Source of the DNA: Kitasatospora xanthocidica | GTDB taxonomy: Bacteria > Actinomycetota > Actinomycetes > Streptomycetales > Streptomycetaceae | NCBI RefSeq assembly: GCF_014656195.1 | Contig: NZ_BNBY01000017.1 | Span: 1 to 64,000 of the forward strand | Direction: 5' to 3' | DNA length: 64,000 bases | Shown: in pieces, positions 5,171-14,445 of the stretch | Numbering within the stretch: position 1 is the first letter of the stretch | Layout of the letters: every line of letters starts with the position of its first letter | Made by a program: the position numbers and the translations under genes | The notes under the pieces: generated by a model | The model's database searches: none | The model's input: the letters and a program-made list of their open reading frames with translations, nothing else | Told to the model about the DNA's origin: nothing

Positions 5171-5243
5171 GCGGACGTAGCTCAGTTGGTAGAGCATCAC
5201 CTTGCCAAGGTGAGGGTCGCGAGTTCGAATCTCGTCGTCCGCT
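5171..5243 (+). tRNA. tRNA-Gly (GCC)
   Basis: A full cloverleaf. Acceptor GCGGACG pairs with CGTCCGC, the D-arm is TAGCTCAGTTGG, and the anticodon stem TCACC/GGTGA closes the loop TTGCCAA with anticodon GCC. T-loop TTCGAAT and discriminator T follow. No CCA is encoded. It is the first gene of a five-tRNA cluster. Confidence 0.97.
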
Positions 5244-5283
5244 CGATGGAGAACAGTGTAAGATCGTTCTTCATGCGTTGCCT

Positions 5284-5354
5284 GGTGGAGTGGCCGAGAG
5301 GCGAGGCAACGGCCTGCAAAGCCGTGTACACGGGTTCAAATCCCGTCTCCACCT
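5284..5354 (+). tRNA. tRNA-Cys (GCA)
   Basis: Acceptor GGTGGAG pairs with CTCCACC. The anticodon loop CTGCAAA carries GCA, and the T-arm is CGGG-TTCAAAT-CCCG. The discriminator is T, the base expected for cysteine tRNAs. The next three bases (5355-5357) read CCA, so the 3' end may be genome-encoded. It lies 40 bp after tRNA-Gly. Confidence 0.96.
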
Positions 5355-5394
5355 CCAAGAGGGTCCCCCGGTTCAACCGGGGGCATCCCCCTGC

Positions 5395-5466
<72 letters not shown>

Positions 5467-5507
5467 CGTCGGATCCTTCGGGGTCTGCTGCAAGACCGCC
5501 TCATCAG

Positions 5508-5579
<72 letters not shown>

Positions 5580-5620
5580 CGTCGGGCCCTTCGGGGTCTG
5601 CTGCAAGACCGCCTCACCAG

Positions 5621-5692
<72 letters not shown>

Positions 5693-6663: not shown

Positions 6664-8568
6664 ATGGCGATGATGCGGCTGAGGCGTGAGGACCCCCGCA
6701 TCGTCGGGCCGTACCGCCTGCACCGGCGACTGGGCGCCGGCGGCATGGGCGTGGTCTACCTCGGCTCCGACCGCCGCGGCCAGCGCGTCGCCCTCAAGCT
6801 GATCCGCGCCGAACTCGCCGAGGACACGGAGTTCCGCACCCGCTTCGCCCGCGAGATCGCCGCCGCCTCCCGGATCCGCGGCGGCTGCACCGCGCGCGTG
6901 GTCGGCTCCGACATCGAAGCCGACCGGCCCTGGCTGGCCACCGCGTACGTACCCGGGCCCTCGCTGTACAAGCGGGTCGGCGACGAAGGACCGATGAGCT
7001 GGCCCGAAGCCGCCCGGATCGGAGCCGCGCTCGCCGACGGACTGGTCAAGGTGCACGAGGCCGGGGTCGTCCACCGGGACCTCAAGCCGTCCAACATCCT
7101 GCTCTCCCCGCGCGGCCCGCGCATCATCGACTTCGGCATCGCGTGGTCGCGCGGCGCCAGCACGCTCACCCACGTCGGCACCGCCGTCGGCTCCCCCGGC
7201 TTCCTCGCCCCCGAGCAGGTCCGCGGCGCCGCCGTCACACCGGCCACCGACGTCTTCGCCTTCGGGGCCACCCTCGCGTACGCCCTCACCGGCGACACCC
7301 CCTTCGGATCCGGGGCGTCCTCCGAGGTGATGCTGTACCGGGTCGTCCACGAGGAACCCGACCTGTCCGCGGTACCGCCCCAACTCGCACCGCTCATCCG
7401 GGCCTGCCTCGCCAAGGAACCCGCCGAACGGCCCGGCGCGGCCGCCCTCCACGAACGCCTCAGCGAACTCGCCGCACGCGGCGCGGCCGCCGGAGCCGCC
7501 GGCCCCGGAACGCGCGCGCCCCGACCCGGGCGCGGCGCACCCGCCGCCCCGCAGGACGGTGCCCGGCAGGGTGTCCCGGCCCCCGGACGCTCCCCCGAGC
7601 CGCCCGGCGTGGCACGGGCCAGAGCCGGCGCCGGCCGCCCCGGCGCGCAGGCCGCGGGCACCGCCGGGCGGCGCCCGCTCCCCCGGCCCGAGCCCACCCC
7701 CGTCACCCGACCGCTGCGGAGCCGGCCCGAACGACCGCAGACACCTCCCCCCGGCCGCCCCGGCCCCCGCGACCGGGGCCGCCAGCACACCCCCGCCCCC
7801 GGCGTACGGCCCGGCACCTCGCGGCAGCGGCTGCTGCGGCAACGGCTGGTGGTCTTCGTCACCGTGACCATCGGCGTGGCCCTCGCCATCGCCGCGGCAC
7901 AGGGCTGCGAGAACCGGGACAGCCAGGGACTGAAGCCGTCCACCGGGGCCGCCGTCGTGAGCACGGACACCGGTGCACGGGGCGGCGGCGAACTCGCCGT
8001 GCCGGGGACATCGGTGGACGTCGCCCCGCAGGCCTCGGCCACACCGCTCCCGGCCGCCGCGCGCGGCGGGGCCGCGGACGGCGCCCTGGCCGCCCCGCAA
8101 GGGCCGCTGCCCGCCGTCGACTGGCCGAACCGCAGCTACCCCGACGGGGCCGGCGGACCCGCCATCGCCCTGCGCGACGGACACTCCGCCGGCGCCGGGC
8201 CCCAGGTCGCGCTCAGCGCGGTGCTGCCGGCCCGGTACAAGGGCCAGCCGGCCGCGGTCGTCGTGCTGCGCCGGGCCGAGGGCTCCGCACCGGTCGACCT
8301 CGTCCAGCTCTACACCTTCGCCGGGGACACCCCGGTCGCCACCACCTCCCGCACCTCGGCCGCCGACCCACAGGCGACGGCCACCTGGCGGCTGGACGGC
8401 ACCGCGGTCGTCCGCGAGGAACGCGTCGCCGCCACCGGCGCGACCACCTCCACCCGCTACACCGTCCGCGCCGACGGCACCCTCGACGAGTCCTGGCCCG
8501 GCGCCCCCGGCAGCACCACCCCACCCCCCGCCGCCGCCCCGGCCCCGCCCACCTCCCCAGCCAGCTGA
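6664..8568 (+). CDS. Transmembrane Ser/Thr protein kinase
   Basis: A 634-aa Hanks-type kinase starting at ATG 6664. The kinase domain covers about residues 15-270: glycine loop LGAGGMGVVY (23-32), ATP lysine K45 in VALKL, catalytic H137-R-D139-LKPSN, metal-binding D156-FG, and the APEQ segment. It is therefore predicted active. A Pro/Arg/Gly-rich juxtamembrane linker runs from about 275 to 390, then one membrane span (VVFVTVTIGVALAIAAA, about 394-413). An extracytoplasmic domain of about 220 aa has no PASTA repeats and contains a beta-rich part (IALRDGHSAGAGPQVALSAVL) that I cannot name. Such kinases sense envelope signals in actinobacteria; ligand and substrates are unknown. Its 3' end runs into a long palindrome array. 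Confidence 0.93.
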   Translation: MAMMRLRREDPRIVGPYRLHRRLGAGGMGVVYLGSDRRGQRVALKLIRAELAEDTEFRTRFAREIAAASRIRGGCTARVVGSDIEADRPWLATAYVPGPSLYKRVGDEGPMSWPEAARIGAALADGLVKVHEAGVVHRDLKPSNILLSPRGPRIIDFGIAWSRGASTLTHVGTAVGSPGFLAPEQVRGAAVTPATDVFAFGATLAYALTGDTPFGSGASSEVMLYRVVHEEPDLSAVPPQLAPLIRACLAKEPAERPGAAALHERLSELAARGAAAGAAGPGTRAPRPGRGAPAAPQDGARQGVPAPGRSPEPPGVARARAGAGRPGAQAAGTAGRRPLPRPEPTPVTRPLRSRPERPQTPPPGRPGPRDRGRQHTPAPGVRPGTSRQRLLRQRLVVFVTVTIGVALAIAAAQGCENRDSQGLKPSTGAAVVSTDTGARGGGELAVPGTSVDVAPQASATPLPAAARGGAADGALAAPQGPLPAVDWPNRSYPDGAGGPAIALRDGHSAGAGPQVALSAVLPARYKGQPAAVVVLRRAEGSAPVDLVQLYTFAGDTPVATTSRTSAADPQATATWRLDGTAVVREERVAATGATTSTRYTVRADGTLDESWPGAPGSTTPPPAAAPAPPTSPAS

Positions 8569-8634
8569 CCTACGGGGAACAGCCGCTGACCCCGGGCCCG
8601 AAGGGGAGCGGCACCCCATCCGCACGAGCGCACA

Positions 8635-9475
8635 GGAAGTCGAGCGGATCGACTTCTGGTGCCGCGGTGTGCCGGGCTGGTGGCTGGAGGGTCGACTTCT
8701 CCCGGCGTGCTGCGCCCAGTGGGTTGGCACGGATTCGGGCCGGCAAAGCGGCCACCCCGCCCGAGCGAGCGCGTGAGGAGTCGGGCAGGCCGACTTCTGG
8801 TGACGCGCTGGGCCGGGCTGGTGGCTCTCAGCACAGGGGTGGGGTGTCGGCGGACCGCAACGCAGGAAGTCGGGCGGGCCGACTTCTGATGGCACGCCGG
8901 GACGGGTCTCTGTCGGCGCGGGCGATGGGGGCGATGGCGAGTTACAGCCGCGCAGGAAGTCGGATGGGCCGACTTCTCCCGGCGTGCTGCGCCCAGTGGG
9001 TTGGCTCGGATTCGGGCAGGCAAAGCGGCCACCCCGCCCGAGCGAGCGCGCGGGAAGTCGAGCGGATCGACTTCTGGTGCCGCGTGGAGTTCTGTGGTCG
9101 GGGCGGGAAATGAGCCCGCCGGAGGCGCAGCGTGAGGAGTCGGGCAGGCCGACTTCTGGTGACGCGCTGGGCCGGGGCGGTGGCTCTGGGCGTAGGCATC
9201 GGGGGTACCGGCATGGCGATGTGCTGAGCCCCGGGGCCAGCAGCAGTACTGCCCCTCCTCGTGAGTGCGTAGGAAGTCAGGCAGGCCGACTTCCTACGCC
9301 CGCGGGCGGCGCGCGAAGGCGGGCAGGCTGGCCCGGCCGGGGCGGGTGCCAGTGGAGGGCTGCGTAGGAAGTCGGGTGGGCCGACTTCTGGTGCTGCGGT
9401 GTGCCCGGGCCAGCCAGGGAAGGCGGGTTTAGGGGCGGGCAAAGCGGCGCGGGTGGTCGGGCCGGGCGGCTTCTG
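8635..9475. repeat. Interspersed 21-bp palindrome array
   Basis: A non-coding stretch with eight copies of an imperfectly conserved palindrome GAAGTCGR-N5-YCGACTTC, at 8636-8656, 8777-8797, 8866-8886, 8956-8976, 9054-9074, 9136-9156, 9273-9293 and 9368-9388. There is also a half-site at 8692-8699 and a decayed copy near 9450-9475. Starts are about 80-140 bp apart. Two copies use GAAGTCGA/TCGACTTC arms and most use GAAGTCGG/CCGACTTC; the paired change keeps the stem intact. Loops vary (gcgga, gcagg, gcggg, atggg, gtggg). The copy at 9267-9299 replaces inner pairing with longer 12-bp outer arms. Flanks are shared too (often TTCTGGTG after the right arm). The elements lie between the kinase and the trmH-like gene, whose 3' ends face each other. 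They look like a REP/MITE-type family, but no mobilising enzyme is in the window. Confidence 0.9.
8693..9050. repeat. 81-bp direct duplication within the palindrome array
   Basis: The segments 8693-8773 and 8970-9050 match at 79 of 81 positions. Separate shorter exact duplications exist: 8635-8666 with 9053-9084 (32 bp), and 8772-8817 with 9131-9176 (46 bp). The order of blocks differs between copies, so the region is a mosaic of rearranged units rather than a simple tandem array. Confidence 0.85.
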
Positions 9476-9493
9476 GTGGTGGTGTCGGTGCTT

Positions 9494-10306
9494 TCAGGGG
9501 GTGGGGGTGGTGACGGCGTAGAAGGCCACGGCTGCGGCGGCGCCGACGTTGAGGGAGTCGATGCCGTGGGCCATGGGGATGCGGACGGGGTGGTGGGCGG
9601 CGGCGATGGCGTGGGGGGTGAGGCCGTCGCCTTCGGCGCCGAGCAGGAGGGCGGCCTTGGGGAGGCGGTGCGGGGTGAGGGTGGCGAGGTCGACGGCGTT
9701 GTCGGCGGGGGTGAGGGCGAGGAGGGTGAAGCCGGCGGCGCGGACGGTGTCCAGGGCGACGGGCCAGGGGTCGAGGCGGGCGTACGGGACCGCGAAGACC
9801 GCGCCCATGGAGACCTTGACGGCCCGCCGGTAGAGCGGGTCGGCGCAGTCGGGCGAGAGCAGGACGGCGTCCATGCCGAGGGCGGCGGCGCTGCGGAAGA
9901 TTGCGCCGAGGTTGGTGTGGTCGACCAGGCCCTCCAGGACGGCGACCCGGCGGGCCCCGGCGAGCAGGTCGGCGGCGTCCGGGAGGGGCTTGCGCTCCAT
10001 CGAGGCGAGGGCGCCGCGGTGGACGTGGTAGCCGGTGACGGCTTCGGCGAGCCCGGGTTCGACCACGTGGACCGGGGCGTCGGCCTCGGCGATGACGTCG
10101 GCCATCACGTCCAGCCACTTCGCGGTGAGCAGCATCGACCGCATCCGGTAGCCGGCGGCGAGGGCGCGGCGGATGACCTTCTCCCCTTCGGCGATGAACA
10201 GGCCCTCGGCGGGTTCGCGGCGGCGGCGCAGTTCGACGTCGGTGAGGCCGGTGTAGTCGGCGAGGCGGGAGTCGGCCGGGTCGGTGATGGTGCTGGGTTC
10301 GGACAC
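9494..10306 (-). CDS. SpoU/TrmH-family RNA 2'-O-methyltransferase
   Basis: A 270-aa protein read from GTG 10306; the frame is open to 10498, but that part lacks family similarity. The N-terminal substrate domain (FIAEGEKVIRRAL, residues about 30-45) precedes a SpoU catalytic domain. That domain has motif 1 DHTNLGAIFRSAAALG, motif 2 LLLGAEGDGL and motif 3 IPMAHGIDSLNVGAAAAV, which form the deep trefoil knot that binds SAM. The target is an rRNA or tRNA ribose; the nucleotide cannot be deduced. It is divergent from the SpoIIE-type gene with an 89-bp gap, and the ribosome site is weak, so the message could be nearly leaderless. Confidence 0.88.
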   Translation of the reverse strand: MSEPSTITDPADSRLADYTGLTDVELRRRREPAEGLFIAEGEKVIRRALAAGYRMRSMLLTAKWLDVMADVIAEADAPVHVVEPGLAEAVTGYHVHRGALASMERKPLPDAADLLAGARRVAVLEGLVDHTNLGAIFRSAAALGMDAVLLSPDCADPLYRRAVKVSMGAVFAVPYARLDPWPVALDTVRAAGFTLLALTPADNAVDLATLTPHRLPKAALLLGAEGDGLTPHAIAAAHHPVRIPMAHGIDSLNVGAAAAVAFYAVTTPTP

Positions 10307-10395: not shown

Positions 10396-13146
10396 ATGGC
10401 CCGTTATCCGGGCCGATCCTGGGCACCGTCGGCCTCTGGCGCCTCTGACGCCACTGGCTCCGCCGGCTCCTCCGGTGGCCGCCCACACGGTCGGCCACAG
10501 CTGCCGCGCGCGAGGCGGGCGTGGCCGGTGTGGCACCGGTCGGTTGCCGGGCAGGTGTTCGCCCTGCAGATCCTGGTCGTGCTGCTGCTGGCGGCGGCCG
10601 CGGTGATCGCCCTGGTGGTGCAGTCGCGCAACGACGCCGACAACGAGGCGCGCAACCGGTCGGTGGCGGTCGCCCAGACCTTCGCCAACTCGCCGGGCAT
10701 GGTGGACGCGCTCCGCTCCCCCGACCCGACCGCGATCCTGCAGCCGAAGGCGCAGTCCGCGCGGATCGGGTCCGGCGTGGACTTCATCGTCGTCCTGAAC
10801 AACCAGGGCATCCGCTACACCCATCCGAACCCGGCCCGGATCGGCCAGAAGTTCATCGGCACCTACGAGCCCGCGCTGCACGGCCAGGTGGTGACCGAGC
10901 ACGTCACGGGCACGCTCGGTCCGCTGGTGCAGGCGGTGGTCCCGGTGTACTCGCCGGACGGCCAGGTGGTCGGGCTGGTCTCGGCGGGCGTCACGCTGGC
11001 CAACGTCAGCACGGCGAGCGAGCGTCAGCTGCCCGTGGTGCTGGGCGCGACGGCGGGCGCGATCGGGCTGGCCACACTGGGGAGCGCGCTGATCAGCCGT
11101 CGGCTGCGGCGGCAGACGCACGGGCTGGGCCCGATCGAGATGACCAGGATGTACGAGCACCACGCGGCCGTGCTGCACGCGGTGCGCGAGGGCGTCATGA
11201 TCGTCGGCGGGGACGGGCTGCTGCTGCTCTGCAACGACGAGGCGCGCCGGCTGCTGGACCTGCCGCCGGACGCCGAGGGCCGCCCGGTGGCCGAGCTGGG
11301 CCTGGAGCAGGCGCCGCTGGAGCTGCTGACCGCCAACCGCCAGGTGACCGACGAGGTGGTGCTGGCCGGGGAGCGGCTGCTGGCCGTGAACGTCCGGCTG
11401 ACCGACCAGGCCGGCGGCCCGCCCGGCTGCGTCGCCACGCTGCGTGACTCCACCGAGCTGCTGGCGCTGTCCGGCCGGGCCGAGGGGGCGCAGCGGCGGC
11501 TGCGGCTGCTGTACGACGCCGGGGTGACGGTGGGCAGCACGCTGGACGTGACGCGGACGGCGGAGGAGCTGGCGCAGGTCGCGGTGCCGCGGTTCGCGGA
11601 CTTCGTCACGGTGGACCTCGCGGAGCAGGTCCTGGTGGGCGAGGAGCCGCCGCCGGGCGTCGTCCTGGGGCGGATGCGGCGCGCGGCGGTGGCGGGCGTA
11701 CGGGACGACGGGCCGTTCTACCCGGTCGGCACGGTGCTGGAGGTGGTGCCGTCGAGCCCGCTGGCCGGGGCGCTGCACAGCGGCGAGCCGGGCCTGGAGC
11801 CGGATCTGGCGGAGGCCCTGCGCTGGCGGGAGCAGGACCCGGAGGGGTCGGCGCGGGCGCTGGCGTACGGGGTGCACTCGCTGGTGCGGGTGCCGCTGCG
11901 GGCGCGCGGGGTGCTGCTGGGGGTGGCCCGGTTCTGGCGGGCGCAGCGGCCGGAGCCGTTCGAGCCGGACGACCTCGCGCTGGCGGAGGAGCTGGTCTCG
12001 CACGCGGCGGTGTGCATCGACAACGCCCGCCGCTACACCCGGGAGCACGCGATGGCGGTGACGCTGCAGCACAGCCTGTTGCCGCGCAGCCTGCCGGCGC
12101 AGAACGCGCTGGACGTGGCGCACCGCTACCTGCCGGCCCAGGCCGGGGTGGGCGGGGACTGGTTCGACGTGATCCCGCTGCCGGGCGCCCGGGTGGCGCT
12201 GGTGGTCGGGGACGTGGTGGGGCACGGGCTGCACGCGGCGGCGACGATGGGCCGGCTGCGGACGGCGATCCACAACTTCTCGACCCTGGACCTGCCGCCG
12301 GACGAGCTGCTGGGGCACCTGGACGAGCTGGTGAACCGGATAGACCAGGACGAGGCGGCGAGCGGCGAGAGCGCCGGGCTGACCGGGGCGACCTGCCTGT
12401 ACGCGATCTACGACCCGGTGGCGCGCCGGTGCACGCTGGCCACCGCCGGGCACCCGCCGCCGGCCGTGGTGGACCCGGAGGGCCGGGTGGTGTTCCCGGA
12501 GCTGCCGACCGGGCCGCCGCTGGGGCTGGCGGTGCTGCCGTTCGAGACCGCCGAGCTGGAGCTGGCCGAGGGCAGCCGGCTGGTGCTGTACACGGACGGG
12601 CTGGTGGAGGACCGCGACCGGGACATCGACGAGGGGCTGGAGCTGCTGCGCTCGGCGCTCTCCGGCCCGCCGCGCACCCCCGAGCAGACCTGCGCGGACG
12701 TGCTCGGGGCGATGCTGCCGGCGCACCCGCAGGACGACATCGCGCTGCTGGTGGCGCAGACCCGGGTGCTGGCGCCGGACCAGGTGGCGCAGTGGGACGT
12801 GCCGTCGGACCCGGCGGCCGTGGGCACCGTCCGGGCGGACGTGGCGCGGCGGCTGGAGTCCTGGGGGCTGGAGGAGGCCGCGTTCGCCACCGAGCTGATC
12901 CTGAGCGAGCTGGTGACCAACGCGATCCGGTACGGCTCGGGGCCGATCCGGGTGCGGCTGCTGCGGGACCGGGCGCTGATCTGCGAGGTGTCGGACGGCA
13001 GCAGCACCTCGCCGCACCTGCGGTACGCGGCGACCGAGGACGAGGGCGGGCGCGGGCTGTTCCTGGTCGCGCAGTTCGCGGACCGCTGGGGGACGCGGTA
13101 CACGGCGACCGGGAAGGTGATCTGGACGGAGCAGCCGCTGGAGTAG
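10396..13146 (+). CDS. Multidomain sensor phosphatase (CitA-like/PAS/GAF/SpoIIE/HATPase)
   Basis: A 916-aa membrane protein. Order: a Pro/Arg-rich N-terminus; TM1 (VFALQILVVLLLAAAAVIALVV, about 54-75); an extracytoplasmic CitA/DcuS-like sensor (about 80-205, with YSPDGQVVGLVSAGVTL); TM2 (about 213-235); a PAS domain (HAAVLHAVREGVMIV); a GAF domain (about 370-545); a PP2C/SpoIIE phosphatase (GGDWFDVI near 585, ATAGHPPPAV, LVLYTDGLVE, DDIALLVA); and a C-terminal RsbW-like HATPase (LILSELVTNAIRYG near 830, GGRGLFLV). It combines a serine phosphatase and an anti-sigma-type kinase in one chain, the layout of actinobacterial partner-switching regulators. Its anti-anti-sigma target is not encoded nearby. 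The stop codon overlaps a terminator hairpin. Confidence 0.93.
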   Translation: MARYPGRSWAPSASGASDATGSAGSSGGRPHGRPQLPRARRAWPVWHRSVAGQVFALQILVVLLLAAAAVIALVVQSRNDADNEARNRSVAVAQTFANSPGMVDALRSPDPTAILQPKAQSARIGSGVDFIVVLNNQGIRYTHPNPARIGQKFIGTYEPALHGQVVTEHVTGTLGPLVQAVVPVYSPDGQVVGLVSAGVTLANVSTASERQLPVVLGATAGAIGLATLGSALISRRLRRQTHGLGPIEMTRMYEHHAAVLHAVREGVMIVGGDGLLLLCNDEARRLLDLPPDAEGRPVAELGLEQAPLELLTANRQVTDEVVLAGERLLAVNVRLTDQAGGPPGCVATLRDSTELLALSGRAEGAQRRLRLLYDAGVTVGSTLDVTRTAEELAQVAVPRFADFVTVDLAEQVLVGEEPPPGVVLGRMRRAAVAGVRDDGPFYPVGTVLEVVPSSPLAGALHSGEPGLEPDLAEALRWREQDPEGSARALAYGVHSLVRVPLRARGVLLGVARFWRAQRPEPFEPDDLALAEELVSHAAVCIDNARRYTREHAMAVTLQHSLLPRSLPAQNALDVAHRYLPAQAGVGGDWFDVIPLPGARVALVVGDVVGHGLHAAATMGRLRTAIHNFSTLDLPPDELLGHLDELVNRIDQDEAASGESAGLTGATCLYAIYDPVARRCTLATAGHPPPAVVDPEGRVVFPELPTGPPLGLAVLPFETAELELAEGSRLVLYTDGLVEDRDRDIDEGLELLRSALSGPPRTPEQTCADVLGAMLPAHPQDDIALLVAQTRVLAPDQVAQWDVPSDPAAVGTVRADVARRLESWGLEEAAFATELILSELVTNAIRYGSGPIRVRLLRDRALICEVSDGSSTSPHLRYAATEDEGGRGLFLVAQFADRWGTRYTATGKVIWTEQPLE

Positions 13147-13173
13147 GAAGTCGGACGGGCCGACTTCCCACTC
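13141..13173. terminator. Bidirectional terminator made from the array palindrome
   Basis: Arms 13141-13154 and 13160-13173 pair over 14 positions with one mismatch around loop acggg. The core GAAGTCGG-acggg-CCGACTTC is the same palindrome as in the 8.6-9.5 kb array. It contains the TAG stop of the phosphatase gene and lies between two convergent genes, so it can end both transcripts. Confidence 0.75.
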
Positions 13174-13197: not shown

Positions 13198-14445
13198 CTA
13201 CCGCTGGAAGGCGGCGGCCAGGACGTTGACGACGTCGCCGATGACGATGACCGCCGGCGGCTTGACCCCCTCGGCCTCGACCACCGCGGCGACGGTGCCC
13301 AGGGTGGCGTCCACCCGGCGCTGGGCGGCGGTGGTGCCCTCCTGGACGATCGCGACCGGGGTGTCCGCCGGGCGGCCGTGCTCGACCAGCCGGGCGGCGA
13401 TCGCACCGATCTTGTCCACGGCCATCAGCAGCACCAGGGTGCCGCTCATCTTCGCGGCGGCCTCCCAGTTGGTCAGCGAGCGCTCGTCGTCCGGGCCGAC
13501 GTGGCCGGAGATCACGGTGAACTCGTGCGTCATGCCCCGGTGGGTGACCGGGACACCGGCCGCCGCGGGGACGCTGATCGAGCTGGAGATGCCGGGCACG
13601 ACCGTGACCGGCAGACCGGCCTCGGCGCAGGCCAGCAGCTCCTCGCCGCCGCGTCCGAAGACGTACGGGTCGCCGCCCTTGAGCCGGACCACGAACTTGC
13701 CGGCCTTGGCGTGCTCGATCAGCGTGCGGTTGATCGCCTCCTGGGCCATGAACCGGCCGTACGGGATCTTGGAGGCGTCGATCACCTCGACGTGCTCGGG
13801 CAGCTCGGCGAGCAGCTCGCGCGGGGCGAGGCGGTCGGTGACCACCACGTCGGCGTCGGCGAGCAGGCGGCGGCCGCGCACGGTGATCAGGTCCGGGTCG
13901 CCGGGGCCGCCGCCGACCAGGGCGACGCCGGCGCCGTGCGAGCGGTACTGGCGGGCGGCCAGCGAGCCGTCCCGCAGGCCCTCCACGATCGAGTCGCGCA
14001 GGGCGGCGGAGTGGCGCGGGTCGCCGGTGAGGACGGCCACGGTGGCGCCCGCGTCGCGGCCGCTGGCCGGGGTCCAGGCGGTGGCGGCGGAGGCGTCGTC
14101 GCTGCGGGAGCAGAACACCCGGGCCCGCTCGGCCTCGGCGCTGACGGCCGTGTTGACGGCCGGGTCGTCGGTGGCGACCAGCACGTACCAGGCCTCGGCC
14201 AGGTCGCCCTCCTCGTACGGACGGGCGTGCCAGGTGAGCTCCCCGGCGTCGGCCATCGCCTGGACGGCGGGGGTGGTGGCCGGGGATATCAGGTGCAGGT
14301 CGGCGCCGGTGGCGATCAGGGCGGGCAACCGACGCTGGGCGACCTGGCCGCCGCCGACCACGACGACGCGGCGGCCGGCCAGCAGCAGGCCGACCGGGTA
14401 CGGGGTGCGGCCCTCGGTGCTCGGGTGCGGATTGGGCGCGGTCAT
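13198..14445 (-). CDS. cobA: Uroporphyrinogen-III C-methyltransferase with precorrin-2 dehydrogenase domain
   Basis: A 415-aa CysG-type fusion. Residues about 15-165 form the NAD-binding precorrin-2 dehydrogenase/ferrochelatase domain (VVVVGGGQVAQRRLPAL; VLVATDDPAVN). From about residue 172 the SUMT methylase domain begins: GVALVGGGPGDPDLITVRG, VVTDRLAP, VVRLKGGDPYVFGRGGEE and VPGISSSISVPAAAGVPVTHR. It converts uroporphyrinogen III to precorrin-2 with two SAM and can oxidise it to sirohydrochlorin, feeding siroheme (sulfite/nitrite reductase) and cobalamin. It lies downstream of bluB-cobT but is separated from it by a strong hairpin. Could equally be named cysG. Confidence 0.93.
   Translation of the reverse strand: MTAPNPHPSTEGRTPYPVGLLLAGRRVVVVGGGQVAQRRLPALIATGADLHLISPATTPAVQAMADAGELTWHARPYEEGDLAEAWYVLVATDDPAVNTAVSAEAERARVFCSRSDDASAATAWTPASGRDAGATVAVLTGDPRHSAALRDSIVEGLRDGSLAARQYRSHGAGVALVGGGPGDPDLITVRGRRLLADADVVVTDRLAPRELLAELPEHVEVIDASKIPYGRFMAQEAINRTLIEHAKAGKFVVRLKGGDPYVFGRGGEELLACAEAGLPVTVVPGISSSISVPAAAGVPVTHRGMTHEFTVISGHVGPDDERSLTNWEAAAKMSGTLVLLMAVDKIGAIAARLVEHGRPADTPVAIVQEGTTAAQRRVDATLGTVAAVVEAEGVKPPAVIVIGDVVNVLAAAFQR

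Follow-up and report, generated by a model that had tools for sequence, protein, structure and literature searches.

The convergent gap and its palindromes

The DNA analysed here, which we call the window, is a stretch of 64,000 nucleotides from Kitasatospora xanthocidica in which a kinase gene and a SpoU-type methyltransferase gene converge on a gap of 925 bp. That gap is occupied by an array of short palindromes, the copies of what we term hairpin A. A preliminary description of this DNA had listed eight 21-bp palindromes, one half-site and one decayed copy, and our recount returned the same inventory at 8636-9473, with palindromes starting at 8636, 8777, 8866, 8956, 9054, 9136, 9273 and 9368 and Watson-Crick pairing at seven or eight of the eight arm pairs. 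A ninth copy, with its core at 13147-13167, had been overlooked. The features are listed in order of position; genes carry a strand and were identified with Pfam, and the repeats are given without strand.

6664-8568, + strand: Ser/Thr protein kinase gene; the array follows its 3' end
8625-8666: 42-bp duplicate with P1/P5 (partner 9043-9084, 40 positions identical)
8636-8656: palindrome copy P1, GAAGTCGAGCGGATCGACTTC
8689-8788: 100-bp duplicate, one end in a palindrome (partner 8966-9065, 92% identical)
8692-8699: half-site TCGACTTC, with the right flank of P4
8771-8817: 47-bp exact duplicate with P2/P6 (partner 9130-9176)
8777-8797: palindrome copy P2
8866-8886: palindrome copy P3
8956-8976: palindrome copy P4
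9054-9074: palindrome copy P5, the same sequence as P1
9136-9156: palindrome copy P6, the same sequence as P2
9267-9299: copy P7, with canonical outer arms GCGTAG/CTACGC and core palindrome 9273-9293
9368-9388: palindrome copy P8
9453-9473: decayed copy, GTGGTCGGGCCGGGCGGCTTC
9494-10306, - strand: SpoU-family RNA methyltransferase gene, convergent, right of the array
10528-13146, + strand: sCache/GAF/SpoIIE phosphatase gene, left of the single copy
13141-13173: ninth, single copy, between convergent genes and abutting the stop codon at 13146
13198-14445, - strand: tetrapyrrole methylase / NAD-binding (siroheme synthase type) gene, convergent, right of the single copy

The window holds 17 matches to GAAGTC-N9-GACTTC with at most two mismatches, against 1.4 expected, and none of 100 shuffled sequences reached 17. 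As had been noted before, the genes of the window are free of copies and the array copies share flanks; all three duplications (42 bp, 47 bp and 100 bp) either contain a palindrome or have one end in or adjoining one. On the + strand the majority of array copies can still fold, with a 9-bp core stem and partial outer pairing. The copy at 9267-9299 had been taken for an alternative form, but the relation is the reverse: its long stem is the canonical one, and in the other seven copies of the array the outer arms are eroded. A scan of 8500-9700 found no T-run terminators, and no sigma-70-type promoters were detected in the array. Elsewhere in the window, at 5171-5692, lie five consecutive tRNA genes, of which three score identically and are spaced 113 bp apart, probably a recent tandem duplication.

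A hairpin family with a near-invariant core

The canonical unit spans about 33 bp and comprises a nearly invariant core, GAAGTCG...CGACTTC, a variable loop of 5 nt and six outer pairs in which both partners vary. The aligned copies give the consensus G-[CA]-[GA]-[CT]-[GAC]-[GA], then GAAGTCG-R, N5, Y-CGACTTC and the complement, with about 1.8-2.0 bits of information at core positions and 0.5-1.7 bits at outer ones. Standard pairs fill 94% of 616 pair cells, with 44 double changes, compared with 36-44% paired in slid-partner controls. The proposal that the hairpin is kept rather than its bases thus stands in one half only: covariation across the genome speaks for the hairpin, but the bases of the 7-bp core stay, and the outer six pairs, together with the loop, take almost all of the free drift. 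In the window, the inner arms change in step, as first reported from the array, but at a single pair; the strong covariation is that of the outer six pairs, genome-wide. The core is invariant in single and array copies alike, and outer pairing is lost in arrays. The 33-nt unit of single copies has a mean folding energy of -26 kcal/mol. Counts of G.U against A.C pairs were mixed and gave no clear sense-strand bias, and a wobble bias was dropped as an argument for an RNA role. The aligned copies carry no fixed GTAG or CGTC tag at their ends.

Family status had been made to depend on the motif recurring elsewhere in the genome and in relatives, and it does. The assembly that holds the window contains 79 exact GAAGTC-N9-GACTTC sites and none of the reversed control, and a covariance model trained on 44 copies of hairpin A returned 150 matches over both strands. 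The array locus has its closest named relatives within Kitasatospora, among them K. aureofaciens and K. purpeofusca. Our survey of strict sites covered 298 genomes of the taxonomic family, 70 of them from the genus Kitasatospora: 38 of these 70 carry between 6 and 109 sites and 32 carry none, and the 228 other genomes have 0 or 1. Within the 298 genomes surveyed, hairpin A is confined to Kitasatospora. A tree of 30 genomes, built from one gene, unites the thirteen genomes with at least 25 sites in one clade with a support of 0.995; G005, with 15 sites, falls outside this A-rich clade. For the low-count genomes G005 and G033 (L201-L212), 6 of 12 sampled sites are intergenic and the rest lie in genes with weaker pairing, and their membership of the family is less clear than elsewhere. 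At or above gathering score, Rfam 15 matched only tRNAs in the window and six loci, and no description of the family in Kitasatospora or Streptomyces was found in the literature covered, which included few subscription journals. A viral source was rejected: among 2.9 million contigs there were 93 stretches, and those listed hold one palindrome each and no array.

Comparison among relatives separates the position of the hairpin from its number. Along some 60 kb of syntenic DNA (40 kb in G022), the A-positive genomes compared carry hairpin A at the array slot and the 13147 slot alone; G007 carries it only at the array slot, and the A-negative G024 nowhere. Recognised copies at the array slot number none in G024, G032, G003, G005 and G033, one in G016, G020, G007 and G010 (there slightly altered and abutting the stop codon), two to about five in further relatives, and eight in the K. 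xanthocidica window; K. aureofaciens ATCC 10762 has a gap of more than 1.3 kb, filled largely with degenerate look-alikes. Because relatives share the two slots and differ in copies from 0 to 8, core positions are old and stable and the copy number at one slot is fluid. The 13147 slot holds hairpin A in 12 relatives with loop or arms altered, for example from GAGTGG/CCACTC to GAGCAG/CTGCTC in G022, and different hairpins in G024, G032 and G007, the one in G032 not clearly above shuffles (z -1.7). Noncoding flanks do not align between genomes, and no clean empty or insertion site, where the target-site duplication of a MITE would show, could be aligned. In this genome an alpha/beta hydrolase - MarR gene pair (L108:6065-7580) is flanked by hairpin A on either side, and its orthologues in 7 relatives have no adjoining hairpin A; copies have therefore been gained or lost.

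A hairpin behind genes

Ninety copies were sorted by context with our own gene finder, run on the stretches around them, in which small genes may be misplaced. Convergent gaps make up only 18% of intergenic DNA, yet they hold 48 of the 90 copies; tandem genes flank a further 35 and divergent genes 5, and called ORFs contain the remaining 2. Single copies follow the stop codon at a median of 26 nt. At the same loci we found 65 unrelated perfect hairpins, whose median distance is 31 nt compared with 23.5 for hairpin A and which have no core in common apart from low-complexity GC words. No U-tract follows hairpin A (1.30 U per 8 nt, where 1.16 is expected, with three or more U in 11%). Of the two marks of an L-shaped terminator it thus shows the GC-rich hairpin close behind the stop codon and lacks the U-rich tract. 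The missing U-tract, the terminator slot and the unrelated hairpins found as replacements are what is expected of an I-shaped (U-lacking) terminator.

This positional evidence makes termination, or protection of 3' ends, the best reading. We consider it fairly probable that hairpin A is a Kitasatospora family of bidirectional, U-tract-less (I-shaped) terminators or 3'-end barriers placed behind genes, which would stop RNA polymerase, or block 3' exonucleases, on both strands. The closest counterparts are the I-shaped terminators of high-GC actinobacteria, with a GC-rich stem, a short loop and no U-tract after the stop codon; such U-lacking structured 3' ends have been mapped in S. clavuligerus (Streptomyces), and hairpin A sits in the matching slot (PMC8269248). 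Those terminators have no common sequence, however, and hairpin A has a near-invariant 7-bp core restricted to one clade.

Between the convergent kinase and methyltransferase genes the array probably acts as a redundant row of terminators, or else it is a by-product of palindrome-driven recombination. It is best read as one terminator slot whose unit was multiplied through short duplications with junctions at or beside palindromes; amplification would have proceeded by recombination at the palindromes, with the core retained in the extra copies and much of their outer stem lost. Against the terminator reading, eight copies at one gene junction exceed the need, some copies lie between divergent genes or in called ORFs, the wobble counts show no clear sense-strand bias, and arm covariation could arise by quasi-palindrome correction.

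Terminators are normally alike in shape and not in sequence, and they do not need a fixed core. Termination alone therefore does not explain the invariant GAAGTCG, and the fixed core calls for a factor that reads it or for a homogenising or dispersal process. The core is probably held by more than folding, and the simplest holder would be a clade-specific protein, or dispersal or conversion machinery, that reads it. Sequence-specific termination, in which a clade-specific factor would read the GAAGTCG core in RNA or DNA and make hairpin A a factor-dependent bidirectional terminator, seems to us improbable. If true, read-through at about 60 gene junctions would be governed by a single trans-acting protein.

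Terminator-slot hairpins with a near-invariant core in one genus suggest a novel mechanism of recognition or dispersal. The natural variants, with drifting outer arms, a fixed core and 0 to 8 copies at one junction, could be used for probing 3' ends, which is relevant to high-GC actinomycetes, where these ends often lack U-tracts. Annotators could also give a name to a repeat that is now read as unexplained noncoding DNA.

Competing readings and a second palindrome

The possibility of a protein-binding array, raised in the preliminary description, is best put as an operator or nucleoid-type site: a dimeric protein would bind the 21-bp core palindrome, and arrays would gather that protein. We regard this as unlikely. 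The core that persists in single and array copies while arrays lose their outer pairing is consistent with such a site, as is the alternation, elsewhere in the genome, of hairpin A with a second palindrome that is itself a putative TetR-family operator (below). Single copies, however, follow stop codons or fill convergent gaps and are rare in divergent promoter regions, and a site bound as duplex needs no covarying outer arms. Protein binding may thus apply to the core, but it is not the simplest account of single copies that sit in a terminator slot.

It is also improbable that hairpin A is a non-autonomous mobile element of REP/MITE-like kind, mobilised in trans by a transposase such as a RAYT. 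Like REP and BIME sequences, which are intergenic palindromes of 20-40 bp present in tens of copies and sometimes in mosaic clusters (PMC2817692, PMC3733652), hairpin A occurs as many short intergenic palindromes that share one core. Its loci cluster, with 9 neighbouring pairs closer than 3.5 kb where 1.2 are expected, and the gene pair flanked in this genome and bare in its relatives points to gain or loss of copies. The definition of REP sequences, however, includes a GTAG or CGTC end tag (PMC3733652), and hairpin A has neither this tag nor a link to a RAYT; its stem is perfect and its positions are conserved in the core genome. The Y1 transposase (PF01797) is missing from the A-rich genomes G001, G007, G019, G015, G006, G010, G011 and G031, this genome has only a partial match to it, and no new site appeared over about 60 kb in each of 8 A-positive relatives. 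These comparisons do not support the earlier REP/RAYT suggestion and rule out a RAYT as a general partner. A composite transposon around paired copies was likewise rejected, with only ordinary genes, and no transposase, enclosed between them.

It is also conceivable, but very unlikely, that the family reflects neutral drift of palindromes, in which descent and local duplication would supply the copies and template-switch (quasi-palindrome) correction would match their arms, with no present function. Such correction could produce the arm covariation instead of selection, and the joint changes of the arms, the array junctions at palindromes and the varying copy number at one slot all fit. Against drift, about a dozen species retain the core and its position amid noncoding DNA that cannot be aligned, the placement is that of ordinary terminators, and the outer arms drift while the core does not.

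A DNA-uptake-like signal, suggested by analogy with the inverted uptake-sequence pairs that serve as terminators in Neisseria (PMC2397512), which share with hairpin A a fixed short sequence, inverted pairing and the terminator slot, is scarcely credible and largely refuted: unlike what such pairs would predict, single half-sites are not in excess, with GAAGTCGG outside palindromes found 46 times in genes (48 expected) and 16 times in intergenic DNA (16.4 expected).

The second palindrome, AATATGTAGACCGGTCTACATATT, alternates with hairpin A at a period of about 55 bp in further arrays, both in this genome and in G112, and has no copy in the window array. These mixed arrays lie at the following positions.

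L022:5880-6480
L023:5670-6390
L027:9900-10450
L028:5920-6790
L034:10070-10690
L097:5900-6500
L217:2050-2800

In seven genomes AATATGTAGACCGGTCTACATATT stands just upstream of, and usually also after, an LmrA/YxaF-type TetR-family gene (PF21993; locus L099:5900-6481, orthologues L341-L348, with a divergent form of the motif in G024). Because it adjoins this gene in seven genomes, AATATGTAGACCGGTCTACATATT is most likely the operator of the LmrA/YxaF-type regulator. Clusters of AATATGTAGACCGGTCTACATATT also occur without hairpin A, in G020 (L345) and G024 (L347). Finally, in the array of G010 (L219:2480-2800) and in the G022 gap, a GAAACGTTTC / ATCGTTTCTGCT-like motif lies amid the hairpins and is perhaps another type of operator.
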